Shown: positions 29,153-45,068 of the stretch, piece after piece
Layout: each line of letters starts with the position of its first letter
How positions within the stretch are numbered: the stretch's first letter is position 1
IMG/VR virus record: IMGVR_UViG_3300009151_000084
Span: 1-57,205 of that record
Direction: 5' to 3' (one strand)
Source of the DNA: a virus
Length of the DNA stretch: 57,205 bases
Program-made: the position numbers and the translations under genes
Notes under the pieces: generated by a model
What the model was told of the DNA's origin: nothing
Databases searched by the model: none
The model's input: the letters and a program-made list of their open reading frames with translations, nothing else

Positions 29153-29383
29153 ATGCAATTTAAATCACGCGTCGCAGGCATTCCCTGCATCATCGAAGTT
29201 ACCCACTACAGCATCATCAAGGGCGAGGGCTACGGTGCCCCGTCAGACATCGATGCGCGTGGTGGCGTCGAGTCAGAGTTCGAGTTGTTAGACAGCCGCG
29301 GTCGTCGCGCACTGTGGCTCGAGCGCAAGCTGAACGCTGACATGATCTACAACATCAAATCTGAAATTGCGGAGCTCGTATGA
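29153..29383 (+). CDS. Small hypothetical protein
   Basis: A 76-residue protein (MQFKSRVAGIPCIIEVTHYS; SEFELLDSRGRRALWLERKL). Beta strands then a helix. Proteins of the 'xGxPCIIxVTHY' type with an 'E...EFxLLDxxGRxAxWLExxL' end are common in phages, function unknown. Its stop overlaps the next start by ATGA. Confidence 0.62.
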   Translation: MQFKSRVAGIPCIIEVTHYSIIKGEGYGAPSDIDARGGVESEFELLDSRGRRALWLERKLNADMIYNIKSEIAELV

Positions 29384-29469
29384 AGTACACATTCTGGTCG
29401 GAGGTTTGCGGCGCCACCTCGTTGGTGATTTGCTTTATCATGATGATTCTTCTAGTGGGATGCCTTTAG
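29380..29469 (+). CDS. Mini membrane protein
   Basis: A 29-residue protein, with one hydrophobic segment (LVICFIMMILLVGCL) after a polar start (MKYTFWSEVCGATS). It overlaps the previous stop by ATGA. A single-span membrane peptide of unknown role, similar in style to the one at 25791. Confidence 0.5.
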   Translation: MKYTFWSEVCGATSLVICFIMMILLVGCL

Positions 29470-29519
29470 CAAGCAGCTGTGGCGACGGGCACACGACCGT
29501 CTAAGCGGATACACTCAGC

Positions 29520-29820
29520 TTCAGAGTTGACGCCTCGGAAAGACGAGGATCAACACGCATAGGCGTTACTGGCTGACGAGCAGCATTGATCTGAGTCCAA
29601 AGGGGTATGACATGGCTACCCACGGATCAATGCGAAAAGGTAGCGCCTAGCCGTGTTGATAGTGCTATCAACTAATAGCGTCGACGTTAGGCATGAGTGG
29701 GCGGCGCGGGGGTTTAGGTTTTTTACCCTTTAACCATGCCAGTCGGTGCGCGGGAACCTTACTGCGTGAACCGATGGACACCTCGGAAAGACGGGGACTA
29801 ACAATAAATACGGGTTAGCG
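29520..29820 (+). ncRNA. Highly structured non-coding region, candidate RNA
   Basis: The 376-base gap 29470-29845 has no convincing gene but dense pairing. H1: GTTGA and CCTCG (526-537 of 29 kb) pair with CGAGG and TCAAC (544-554) around GAAAGA. P1: ATCAACACG (29549-29557) with CGTGTTGAT (29652-29660), extended by TAGGCGTTA (29560-29568) with TAGCGCCTA (29641-29649). P2: GCATTGATC (29583-29591) with GATCAATGC (29625-29633). P3: GGGTA (29603-29607) with TACCC (29617-29621). H3: GTTGATAG with CTATCAAC (29655-29672). H4 at 29781-29796 repeats H1's CCTCGGAAAGACG. Some pairings exclude each other. No match to a named RNA family is claimed. Confidence 0.6.
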
Positions 29821-29839
29821 TTAACTCGTATAATACGAG
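29820..29839. promoter_or_regulatory. GTTAAC box, -10 and 15-bp palindrome (copy 2)
   Basis: GTTAAC (29820-29825) is joined to CTCGTATAATACGAG (29825-29839), the same 15-mer as at 17219 and 52448 on the other strand. A consensus -10 TATAAT (29829-29834) lies in the middle of the palindrome, and no good -35 is present. Transcription of the gene at 29846 would be controlled by whatever binds here. The start has AGGTG four bases upstream, also touching the palindrome. Confidence 0.75.
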
Positions 29840-29845
29840 GTGATA

Positions 29846-30100
29846 ATGATTAAATTCGACGGATTAGACGACGCACTGGTAGGCATGAGCGAAGTCTGGC
29901 TCACAACAGGCGCCAAGGTGCTCAGAACGGTCTACAGTGGCAACAAGATGGTCGAGCTATTCAAGGCACAGGGTATGACAGACGAAGAGGCTATGGAGTG
30001 GATATCGTTCAATGTCGAGGGTGCCTACGTCGGTGAGGCAACACCGATTGTGTTCTGGGACTACGATCCAGAGTGTGGTTGGGAGTTTGAAGGAGCTTGA
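29846..30100 (+). CDS. Small acidic hypothetical protein
   Basis: An 84-residue acidic protein (MIKFDGLDDALVGMSEVWLT; EAMEWISFNVEGAYVGEATP; WDYDPECGWEF). Phage proteins of this 'DEAMEWIxFNxEGAYxGxxTP' kind are fairly common and unassigned. ATG at 29846 with AGGTG is preferred to GTG at 29840, which lies on the palindrome edge. Its stop overlaps the -35 of the small-RNA promoter. Confidence 0.68.
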   Translation: MIKFDGLDDALVGMSEVWLTTGAKVLRTVYSGNKMVELFKAQGMTDEEAMEWISFNVEGAYVGEATPIVFWDYDPECGWEFEGA

Positions 30101-30124
30101 CAGAACTTGTAGTGAGAGTAAAAT
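30097..30124 (+). promoter_or_regulatory. Strong promoter for a small RNA
   Basis: TTGACA (30097-30102), 16-base spacer, TAAAAT (30119-30124). The expected start is near 30131. No open frame with a ribosome binding site follows before the terminator at 30249. Confidence 0.75.
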
Positions 30125-30130
30125 ATGCAG

Positions 30131-30250
30131 TATGTAGTCGGATTGGAACTCCGACGAATGAAGCCGCTTTAGTATGCGTCCCGCCCCGTTAAGGGGGTCA
30201 GTCCCACAAAGACTGGGTTCCACGGGGTGCAGACTAAAGCGGCTTTTTTA
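30131..30250 (+). ncRNA. Candidate small RNA of about 120 nt
   Basis: It starts after a strong promoter. A hairpin GTCGGA (30137-30142), loop TTGGAAC, TCCGAC (30150-30155) comes first. Then a long stem AAGCCGCTTTAGT (30161-30173) pairs with ACTAAAGCGGCTT (30233-30245). Inside it lie CCCCG/CGGGG (30184-30188, 30223-30227), TGC/GCA and the hairpin CAGTC(CCACAAA)GACTG (30199-30215). The 3' end runs into six Ts. Promoter, compact fold and terminator make a stand-alone RNA likely; target or protein partner unknown. Confidence 0.7.
30161..30249 (+). terminator. Terminator stem of the small RNA
   Basis: A 13-pair outer stem (30161-30173 with 30233-30245) followed by TTTTTT (30244-30249). The loop is long (59 bases) and folds itself, unlike ordinary short-loop terminators. 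Confidence 0.72.
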
Positions 30251-30397
30251 TTTTCCCGATCAGATCGTCGGTCACATTCCGACAGGGTCTGGTGGATAGC
30301 TCCTACTGTGGGAAGTCTTGAGACAGGAGCGTGGGTGGCGAAGTTAGCGCCCTAAGACAAACGGCTGACGGGTTCTGTGGCTCCGAAAGGCAAACAG
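30251..30397 (+). other. Gap with further hairpins, no gene
   Basis: Contains GTCGG(TCACATT)CCGAC (30267-30283), which resembles the first hairpin of the small RNA, a GCTCC/GGAGC stem (30299-30303, 30326-30330) and GGCG/CGCC (30337-30340, 30348-30351). It could be the leader of the terminase operon. No promoter of high quality was seen here. Confidence 0.45.
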
Positions 30398-30502
30398 ATG
30401 AAGGCGAATCTAGGATGGGCTAGGTTCGTCCACCAAAAGGCAAGTGACAGGGATGGGGCAGTAAAGGGGGCAGATGGGGTAAACGGGGAGGGGGTAGGGT
30501 GA
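30398..30502 (+). CDS. Possible very small protein
   Basis: A 34-residue frame (MKANLGWARFVHQKASDRDG, then Gly/Val-rich). GAAAGG lies seven bases before the ATG, and its TGA overlaps the GTG start of the next gene by four bases (GTGA), the same coupling seen across this phage. Composition is odd (many G), so it may be only a leader peptide. Confidence 0.4.
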   Translation: MKANLGWARFVHQKASDRDGAVKGADGVNGEGVG

Positions 30503-30729
30503 CGTATTACTTCGACAAAAAAAAGGGCAGAATTGCCCATCTCTGGAACGACACTGACACGTTCTGTGGCTTCCTGAAAGCAAACGATGGCTCAGGTAAG
30601 CAGATCCAAACAAACAAGCTAGAACGAGACATCTGCCACGCCTGTGAGCTCAAGTGGCTACTGTGGGACGAGGAAGGTAGCACAGAGCCCAAAAGATCTT
30701 TACAATCTCAGGCATCACAAACGCTTTGA
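30499..30729 (+). CDS. Small hypothetical protein before the terminase
   Basis: A 76-residue protein (MTYYFDKKKGRIAHLWNDTD) with ICHACELKW, a possible CxxC zinc site. GTG start at 30499 has GGAGG eight bases upstream. The gene contains a stretch similar to the non-coding bases 30364-30400, hinting at local duplication. It ends 10 bases before the small terminase subunit. Confidence 0.6.
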   Translation: MTYYFDKKKGRIAHLWNDTDTFCGFLKANDGSGKQIQTNKLERDICHACELKWLLWDEEGSTEPKRSLQSQASQTL

Positions 30730-31216: not shown

Positions 31217-31233
31217 GTGTTCACAGTGAACAC
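31217..31233. repeat. 17-bp perfect palindrome at the terL start
   Basis: GTGTTCAC (31217-31224), A, GTGAACAC (31226-31233). It covers the two possible GTG starts of the large terminase gene. It could be an operator, or a binding or cutting site for packaging. Confidence 0.8.
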
Positions 31234-32638
31234 TTTGACTGACTCGCTCGAGCTGTTCAAGAGTGAGGAGTTCCGCAAGACGTACCTGAGCGCCCCTGCG
31301 GTTAATCGCATCGCGTTCAACTGGCGCCTGAAGTGGCTGTCGACCGCGCACCCCCACCAGATCACCCCGAGCGGGGACTGGTACAACATCCACCTTCTAT
31401 TAGCAGGAAGGGGGGCGGGCAAGACGAGGGTGGCGGCGGAGCAGATCGGATGGTGGGCGTGGCAGCTGCCTAACAGTAGGTGGCTAGTCTCCGCCCCCAC
31501 GAGCTCGGACGTCAGGGCTACCTGCTTTGAGGGTGACTCTGGGCTGATCAGCGTAATCCCACCTGAGCTCGTGGCTGACTACAACAAGAGCTACCACGAG
31601 ATCAAGCTGATCAATGGCTCGCTGATCAAGGGGATCCCCGCGTCAGAGCCTGAGCGCTTTCGCGGTGGTCAGTATCATGGCGCTTGGCTCGATGAGTTAG
31701 CCGCGTGGGACTACCTCAGAGAAGCGTGGGACATGATCCAGTTCGGCGTGCGTCTGGGCAACAAGACAATGATCTTGGCTACCACCACGCCTAAGCCGAA
31801 AGAACTGATCCTAGAGCTGATCGAGCGCGATGGCGATGACGTCTGTGTCACGACGGCTTCGACCCACTCTAATATAGATAACCTCGCGCCAAGCTTTAAG
31901 GCGCAGATCCTGAGCTACGAGGGCACCAAGATCGGCAGGCAGGAGATCTACGCCGAGATCATCGATCCAGAGGAGGGAGGGATTATCGTCAGGGACTGGT
32001 TCCGCCTGTGGTCAGCGGAGCGGGCGTTCCCTGAGTTCGAGTACATCCTGCAGAGCTACGACACGGCGTTCACTGAGCGCACGACAGGCGATCCGACGGC
32101 GTGTTCGGTCTGGGGTATATTCAAGCCCCTCGATCGTCCGCTATGCGCGATGCTGATCGACTGTTGGTCGGAGCACCTCGCGTACCCTGACCTGAAGCCG
32201 AAGCTGTTAGAGGACTATGAGGCGGTGTACGGGGAGCCCGGCAAGCGCGTCGACCTCGTCCTCATCGAGGAGAAGGCGAGCGGGCAGTCGTTGATACAAG
32301 ACCTTGGCAGAGCGCATGTGCAGGTGCGGGGCTATAACCCCGGGAAGTTGGACAAAGTGCAACGCGTCCACCTCATCTCAAACATCATCGCCGCAGGGCG
32401 CGTCTACATCCCTGAGTCGACCAAGCGCAAGGGCTACGTCCGCGACTGGGCTGAGCCCTTCGTGCAGCAGGTCTGCTCGTTCCCTGAGACCAGCCACGAT
32501 GACTACGTCGACACGATGTCGCAGGCGCTGCGCTACCTGAGAGACGCAGGCTTCCTAGACATCGACCCCGATCCGCATTATGATGACGAATACGTCGACG
32601 ACTCTCGCATCAAGCGAGTCAACCCTTACGCAGCGTGA
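31217..32638 (+). CDS. terL: Terminase large subunit
   Basis: A 473-residue DNA packaging motor. Walker A is AGRGAGKT (K69), Walker B is AWLDE (D159, E160), and TTT near 189-191 is the coupling motif. The RNase H-like nuclease has D282 (SYDTAF), E351/E352 (LIEEKASGQ) and D428/D429 (HDDYVDTM). ATPase drives DNA into the procapsid at the portal and the nuclease cuts the concatemer. Two GTG starts are possible, 31217 and 31226; the second has AGGTG six bases upstream, so the protein may begin three residues later. It follows the small subunit directly. Confidence 0.94.
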   Translation: MFTVNTLTDSLELFKSEEFRKTYLSAPAVNRIAFNWRLKWLSTAHPHQITPSGDWYNIHLLLAGRGAGKTRVAAEQIGWWAWQLPNSRWLVSAPTSSDVRATCFEGDSGLISVIPPELVADYNKSYHEIKLINGSLIKGIPASEPERFRGGQYHGAWLDELAAWDYLREAWDMIQFGVRLGNKTMILATTTPKPKELILELIERDGDDVCVTTASTHSNIDNLAPSFKAQILSYEGTKIGRQEIYAEIIDPEEGGIIVRDWFRLWSAERAFPEFEYILQSYDTAFTERTTGDPTACSVWGIFKPLDRPLCAMLIDCWSEHLAYPDLKPKLLEDYEAVYGEPGKRVDLVLIEEKASGQSLIQDLGRAHVQVRGYNPGKLDKVQRVHLISNIIAAGRVYIPESTKRKGYVRDWAEPFVQQVCSFPETSHDDYVDTMSQALRYLRDAGFLDIDPDPHYDDEYVDDSRIKRVNPYAA

Positions 32639-44531: not shown

Positions 44532-45068
44532 ATGGATGACCGTATCCGCAAGAACACTGGCGCAGGTCGTGAAAACCGCGCTGTAGTAGACAAACGTCGC
44601 GCTCCTGCAGACGACGCACTAGCCTCGGCGCCAACACGCCGTCGTCGCTTCCAGTCAGAATTCACGCAGGAAGCGCTGCCGACCGTCAAAGGCGATCCGA
44701 ACTGGCATTACTGTTGGTTATCTACAACAAACCAGTACGACACCATCCACAGCCGCATGCGCTTGGGCTATCAGGCGGTGCTGTGCGATGAGCTCGAAGG
44801 TATGGAGCATCTCAAGGTCAAAGAGGGTGAGCACGTCGGTCACGTCTCCTGCAATGAGATGATTCTGTACAAGTTGCCGATGGACATCTACCAAGACTGG
44901 ATGGCAGAGAAGCATCACTATCAGCCGATGGAAGAAGCAGGCAAGATCCGCGTTCAGCAGGAGCAATTATTGAACTCGGCTCGCGACAGCAACGGCAAGA
45001 GCTTGATCCGCGCTGAGGGTGACTTGTTAGACGGGGAACGCGACATCCCTGCTCCTATTTTTGAATAG
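44532..45068 (+). CDS. Head-region hypothetical protein
   Basis: A 178-residue protein. A basic N-terminus (RRRRFQSEFTQEALPT) is followed by a mixed domain (WHYCWLSTTNQYDTIHSRMR; EHVGHVSCNEMILYKLPMDI) and a Gln/Glu helix. This protein accompanies scaffold and coat genes in many environmental podoviruses, function unknown. ATG at 44532 is preferred to TTG at 44526. Confidence 0.68.
   Translation: MDDRIRKNTGAGRENRAVVDKRRAPADDALASAPTRRRRFQSEFTQEALPTVKGDPNWHYCWLSTTNQYDTIHSRMRLGYQAVLCDELEGMEHLKVKEGEHVGHVSCNEMILYKLPMDIYQDWMAEKHHYQPMEEAGKIRVQQEQLLNSARDSNGKSLIRAEGDLLDGERDIPAPIFE

Follow-up and report, generated by a model that had tools for sequence, protein, structure and literature searches.

A structured element beside the terminase genes

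The window, that is, the whole stretch of DNA analysed, is a virus record of 57,205 bases in which the segment 29384-30100 is flanked by short plus-strand genes on one side and by the terminase genes on the other; the terminase large subunit (31217-32638) was assigned from its sequence and from many phage relatives. Three strands in this segment that an earlier note had singled out for mutually exclusive pairings, TCAAC (29550-29554), GTTGAT (29655-29660) and ATCAAC (29667-29672), are all present, and so is the long stem described there: helix P1 (ATCAACACG/CGTGTTGAT, 9 bp) is followed by a 2x2 loop and by P2 (TAGGCGTTAC/GTAGCGCCTA, 10 bp), which encloses two further helices (Table 1).

Table 1. 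Features of the element in the window, and the three strands of the lambda unit
Feature	Position	Strand	Composition	Support
HP0 leader hairpin	29533..29548	+	CCTCG-GAAAGA-CGAGG, with GACG 5' of the hairpin	stem variation with pairing kept
Domain D1	29549..29660	+	P1 29549-29557/29652-29660; 2x2 loop; P2 29560-29569/29640-29649; hypervariable insert inside	covariation
Window-type insert	29583..29633	+	P3 29583-29591/29625-29633; P4 29603-29607/29617-29621; loop TGACAWGGC	P3 and P4 changes in L129
H3	29655..29672	+	shared strand GTTGATAG (29655-29662) with CTATCAAC (29665-29672); competes with the lower half of P1	hairpin in L138; family-wide partner test
Possible H-type pseudoknot	29678..29740	+	helix a 29678-29683/29702-29707; helix b 29690-29695/29735-29740	weak, four sequences only
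Closing stem	29742..29775	+	GTCGGT/ACCGAT, 5' of the second HP0	changes in relatives
Second HP0	29781..29796	+	CCTCG-GAAAGA-CGGGG; opens a unit with an ORF in place of the D1 insert	sequence; no D1 complement after it
Palindrome	29825..29839	+	CTCGTATAATACGAG, overlapping the SD GAGGTGA (29837-29843) of a small ORF (ATG 29846)	sequence
Lambda strands	44786-44792; 44857-44865; 44933-44941		GCACAAC; GTTGTGCTG; CAGCACAAC	

The promoter that the palindrome had been thought to control is not borne out: TATAAT lies inside the palindrome, but there is no -35 element, the promoter scan was negative and the palindrome overlaps the SD; the region 29825-29848 looks more like an RNA hairpin over a start site. 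Further along, a near-consensus promoter (TTGACA-16-TAAAAT, 30097-30124) is followed by a strong hairpin with a T run ending near 30246 and then by the Rfam RNA Betaproteobacteria-1 (RF02932, 30257-30373, 95.6 bits), an order of promoter, terminator and structured RNA (30097-30373) that is like that of the lambda late leader. In Rfam 15, this RNA is the only hit in the window, and the rest of 29380-30600 gives no credible match at E<=10; the database comparison that had been proposed yields no match to the element itself.

The region 29510-29700 folds at -84.7 kcal/mol compared to -53.5 +/- 4.6 kcal/mol for dinucleotide shuffles (z -6.8), and the P1 domain alone is at z -5.7, which places the fold far beyond chance. 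The proposal of two strong competing folds holds in part: all the strands pair on paper, but the energy of 29526-29700 with P1 forced (-71.2 kcal/mol) is that of the unconstrained optimum, whereas forcing H3, H1 or both gives -64.2, -65.2 and -62.6 kcal/mol, at a cost of 7.0, 6.0 and 8.6 kcal/mol, respectively, with P(P1) ~1. In this copy, P1 is predicted to dominate, with the two states unbalanced and the H3 alternative weak at equilibrium; the energies leave out loop-loop contact and any protein. The upstream hairpin H1 (29526-29530/29550-29554) drops out as part of a switch: it decays without compensation in the relatives, and the leader differs at this place in L138 and L129 (loci are denoted by L and a number).

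Covariation and modularity of a conserved scaffold

Among the relatives identified through the terminase, the region varies in a patchy, modular way. The RNA of the window recurs in L008 and L065 next to a different upstream sequence, with the HP0 stem compensated, and in L065 an additional unit separates the first HP0 from the second; L009 retains HP0 and the P1 strands around a wholly different insert. The second HP0 is not followed by a D1 complement (sites L282 2845, L008 1413 and L065 2209). The window-type insert is present in L129, L138, L155, L425, L426, L427 and L008. In the seven distinct sequences of this type, 98.3% of the pair cells in the 33 pairs of P1-P4 are standard, two-sided changes affect 10 pairs (25 cells compared to 10.9 +/- 2.1 in shuffles; 0 of 500 shuffles as high), and the covariation score is 0.381 compared to at most 0.081 for slid structures. 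The covariation check suggested by the earlier note thus comes out in favor of the RNA, with compensatory changes in P1 and the enclosed helices; because the sequences are few and the rows related, we do not rely on this set alone. Examples are P3, which is GCATTGATC/GATCAATGC in the window and GCATCAGAC/GTTTGATGT in L129, P4 (GGGTA/TACCC and GGCTG/CAGCC, respectively), the H3 hairpin, which recurs in L138 as GTTGGTA/TATCAAC, and the closing stem, which reads GTTGGT/ACCAAT in L008 and GTTGAT/ATCAAC in L138. In the candidate pseudoknot, helix a varies among four sequences (GCGTCG/CGGCGC; GCGTCG/CGACGC in L426; GTGCCGC/GCGGCAC in L138) and helix b is invariant. The HP0 stem occurs as CCTCG/CGAGG, CTCTG/CAGAG, CCCCG/CGGGG, CTCCG/CGGAG, CCTAG/CTAGG and CCCAG/CTGGG, all with pairing kept; given that the loop and the flanks were part of the search pattern, only these stem changes are independent evidence.

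The element is one unit, presumably transcribed from the plus strand, of a large and apparently undescribed family of structured phage RNAs that has a member even in phage lambda. A typical unit starts with HP0, a hairpin with a variable stem and the loop GAAAGA, followed by D1, in which YYAACACG-CAT-P2 ... P2-AGC-CGTGTTGG surrounds a hypervariable insert, and by a second domain, D2, whose closing helix takes as its 5' strand the GTTGG of D1 and as its partner a downstream CCAAC. Both freshwater (Burkholderiales) phages and enterobacterial phages carry such units, arranged in tandem and in many cases next to tRNAs. The pattern HP0 + YNAACA matched 91 viral stretches and that for the D1 5' strand at least 120. 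At 42 of 63 distinct HP0 sites picked blind to the 3' strand, the 20 bases that come next find a complement downstream that exceeds the 99th percentile of shuffles; most of the sites that lack one lead straight into an ORF. For 39 of these sites, chosen on HP0 + YNAACA only, with the 3' strand above the complementarity threshold and blind to the P2 sequence, 12 of 17 pairs show two-sided changes and the score is 0.438 compared to at most 0.147 for slid structures; the threshold inflates the paired percentage in this set, so that it is the variety of pair types that is informative. The reading of the region as chance palindromes without function, which could appeal to the fact that folding of a single sequence is never proof, is refuted by covariation in three sets, next to the z of -6.8, and its probability is negligible.

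In total, 193 distinct oriented units were collected. At P2 position 6, U.G is found in 168 of the 193, U-A in 16, C-G in 8 and G-U in 1, and C.A never; this pattern fixes the RNA strand and would not be needed in a DNA palindrome. The inserts form 115 clusters (82 with one member), and one module sits in the insert slot of L377 and in the D2 slot of L342; consecutive units less than 600 nt apart have a median spacing of 180 nt. The same insert type can be combined with varied D2 modules on the 3' side and varied leaders on the 5' side, the window type having at least four D2 modules. Conserved boundaries, swapped contents and tandem arrangement would also suit a DNA-level element, such as a cassette recombination or insertion site comparable to integron attC, but the U.G wobble is conserved in one strand only, the loop-loop contacts described below covary, the inserts have internal covariation of their own, and GTTGGTG/CACCAAC does not, by inspection, fit the attC consensus GTTRRRY/RYYYAAC; we regard such an element as very improbable. 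Structure and modularity, like the shared strand described below, are established by such comparisons, and the classification of the region as a non-coding RNA is upheld by the covariation, the conserved wobble and the unrelated inserts on one scaffold.

The window copy has the P1/P2 stem with a 2x2 loop (3x3 in other units) and a T.G at the wobble position, and a GTTGR strand complementary both to the P1 5' strand and to a downstream strand (ATCAAC/GTTGAT/ATCAAC at 29549/29655/29667). Its D2, shared with L138, L008 and L426, is of a fourth type, consisting of a short hairpin and the possible pseudoknot; the two hairpins in loop-loop contact that characterize D2 classes i-iii, a minority of units, are absent from this D2. 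Searches of bacterial genomes gave 16 matches, of which only L409 (a Burkholderiales MAG) and L415 (Polynucleobacter sp. UK-Kesae-W10) have the full scaffold, and these full D1 units suggest that the freshwater phages infect Burkholderiales; the matches in Bartonella and the remaining genomes, without the full scaffold, look like chance.

A strand shared by two helices, in freshwater phages and in lambda

The GTTGG on the 3' side of D1 opens a second helix, with a CCAAC-type partner at a median distance of 85 nt. In a test with weighted pairs (counting G.U as full pairs gives no separation from the controls), the best downstream partner scores at least 17 in 49% of 184 units compared to 10% for dinucleotide shuffles and 29% when downstream pieces are exchanged among units, so that part of the partner signal is common sequence and the remainder is unit-specific; in 24% of the tested units, no downstream partner exceeds the score chosen. 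In diverged members, changes affect the three strands jointly, as in CCAAC/GTTGG/CCAAC, CTATC/GATGG/CCATC and CACAAC/GTTGTG/CACAAC and, by inspection, in Pseudomonas phage L431, where the shared strand is GAGTGG with CCACTC on both sides. About one third of the units have a D2 built of two hairpins, one 5' and one 3', whose loops are complementary to each other; the motif classes of the two sides are matched 10, 15 and 16 times and crossed once, with 123 of the 184 units in none of the three classes, and the loop contact GCTGAT/ATCAGC of enterophages is replaced by GTCGAT/ATCGAC in L431. Directly 3' of D2, an intrinsic terminator is found in some phages (L419 PY54, L433 Meifeng; 3 of 60 units).

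D2 class ii led the search to enterobacterial phages, where a single unit used as query matched 190 phage records and, partially, 805 of 5,426 complete E. coli genomes. Across 106 enterobacterial sites, a downstream partner scoring at least 20 is found in 57% (3% when shuffled) and an upstream partner scoring at least 14 in 69% (22% when shuffled); the group is tied to the HP0 group by one of the 106 sites, which has HP0 directly 5'. The lambda unit (44786-44941) lies between tR' and S, following the 6S/tR' terminator, in a stretch that is transcribed in the late phase under Q. The lambda late leader (NC_001416, 44780-45186) thus contains a member of the form GCACAACAGG..P2..CCGTTGTGCTG...CAGCACAAC; it differs from the window in having no HP0 on the 5' side and another insert and D2, and the record is without RNA annotation there. 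Its two states are isoenergetic (-49.3 and -49.9 kcal/mol).

The earlier claim of mutually exclusive pairings is therefore supported beyond its original scope, since the shared strand retains both partners across the family, lambda included. When each state is forced in turn, P1 is favored by a median of 2.8 kcal/mol, with 72 of 140 units within 3 kcal/mol. As P1 is ahead by 7 kcal/mol in the window and by this median in the family, the alternative pairing may be minor or transient. A static RNA, with P1 as its sole functional fold and a downstream complement that does no more than close D2 in the same molecule via bases free of P1, or aid folding or processing, deserves consideration, although we do not think it probable: P1 is dominant in the window and the better state in 120 of the 140 units, and the swap control retains much of the partner signal, CCAAC being a common family sequence, but the two partners of the shared strand co-change in diverged members and the two lambda states lie no more than 0.6 kcal/mol apart. 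We infer that both states occur in the cell.

Genomic company and a possible role in trans

The units keep company with other RNA genes. In Bas80, STGO-35-1, Magnus and 24-32N, units lie 3' of a tmRNA-like sequence, and tRNAs follow in Bas80, STGO-35-1 and 24-32N. This tmRNA-like sequence, whose tag frame is GCAAACGATGATGTTGTTCTGATGGCGGCGTAA (ANDDVVLMAA), occurs in Escherichia, Salmonella and Klebsiella phages (L420 960-1100, L424 910-1050, L423 960-1080, L432 1290-1420), scores 26-29 bits, below the Rfam permuted-tmRNA threshold, and is unannotated. About 1.5 kb of Escherichia phage 24-32N (L432, 1170-2720) is dense in RNA genes, namely, a D1/D2 unit, the tmRNA-like sequence, T-arm tRNA-like sequences and two ARAGORN tRNAs, and adjoins a gene annotated as anti-CRISPR. 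The HP0 consensus TTGACAnCTCGGAAAGACGAG is located 5-7 nt 5' of a tRNA at 15 of 59 sites and within ~250 nt at 5 more; this layout, before tRNA genes or degenerate tRNA-Leu-like sequences, is found in very different phages (loci including L556, L558, L560, L561, L563, L582, L590, L604, L617 and L618). Further examples are Microcystis phage Mvi-JY20, where HP0 lies 3 nt 5' of a tRNA-Leu, and Vibrio phages, where RNA genes are nearby. HP0 may serve phages generally as a leader or as a processing signal.

Units resemble phage tRNA arrays and tmRNA-like genes in that they adjoin tRNAs and the tmRNA-like sequence and a few inserts have a T-arm, but D1/D2 is no tRNA, and the ARAGORN and Rfam tRNA and tmRNA models match neither the window nor the units. 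CTGACGA and GAAA in the window insert resemble the core of a hammerhead ribozyme, but stem I is missing and there is no Rfam hammerhead match. T4-type PeSL mobile regulatory cassettes consist of a short stem-loop repeated 5' of exchangeable phage genes and include a sigma-70 early promoter; HP0 likewise is a stem-loop repeat before exchangeable genes but is without such a promoter and also precedes structured RNAs. IpeX, svsR and lambda 6S are comparable as prophage or late-region RNAs. Lambda 6S ends at tR', just upstream of the lambda unit; the ipeX/nmpC region of DLP12 is without D1/D2 (only an 11-nt chance match); and svsR is excluded from the family, being located at the 3' end of cI (PMC12803456). 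GOLLD, ROOL and OLE (PMC12286853) are likewise large structured RNAs whose role is unknown, but they are single long RNAs of other structure, whereas the present family forms modular arrays without an Rfam match. In Rfam 15, 14 unit loci and 10 named-phage loci gave only tRNAs, int-alpA, RF02932 and the sub-threshold tmRNA, and no published description of the family was found in the open-access literature searched.

Strand sharing itself, the location 5' of the late genes in the window and that between tR' and S in lambda would be expected if the element acted in cis on the next gene, as the switch or attenuator that the earlier note had proposed. Against this, units form tandem arrays and stand between or beside tRNAs and next to unrelated genes, with downstream genes that differ, neither state masks a terminator or a start site (there is no terminator near 29660-29850 and no promoter at the palindrome), one state dominates in the window, and HP0 sites without a D1 complement mostly enter an ORF directly. 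A cis switch is hence unlikely; overall, what the note observed is partly confirmed and what it made of it partly supported.

We favor, with a probability of about 0.6, a modular RNA that stands alone, carries an exchangeable module and is closed by strand exchange. HP0 would mark the 5' side of the unit and D1 would hold out the structured, exchangeable insert on a rigid stem made of P1 and P2, with D2 coming next and using the GUUGG strand of P1. During transcription, P1 would form first; when the downstream CCAAC emerges, the shared strand could move over to D2; the lower five pairs of P1 would then open, with P2 and the insert still folded, and in typical units D2 would additionally be held by the loop-loop contact. 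From the location, the arrays and the insert diversity, we infer that a role in trans is the most likely one, the RNA being a stable non-coding molecule with the insert as its active part. By analogy, the diversity and shuffling of the inserts and their tRNA company resemble those of exchangeable counter-defence genes, and the insert may be swapped between phages as tRNAs and such genes are. A bolder and rather doubtful extension is that phages including lambda carry a combinatorial library of RNA effectors, with a constant scaffold, a conserved strand-exchange hinge and swapped structured modules, some of them tRNA-like, acting in trans against host factors, for example, as decoys for RNA-targeting defences.

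A structured RNA family so widespread, with a member in lambda, would represent a new layer of phage biology. That unrelated inserts sit on a constant scaffold suggests that RNA domains are shuffled in nature, the shared strand offers a ready mutational test, and the lambda member opens the proposal to immediate testing in a standard phage of the laboratory.
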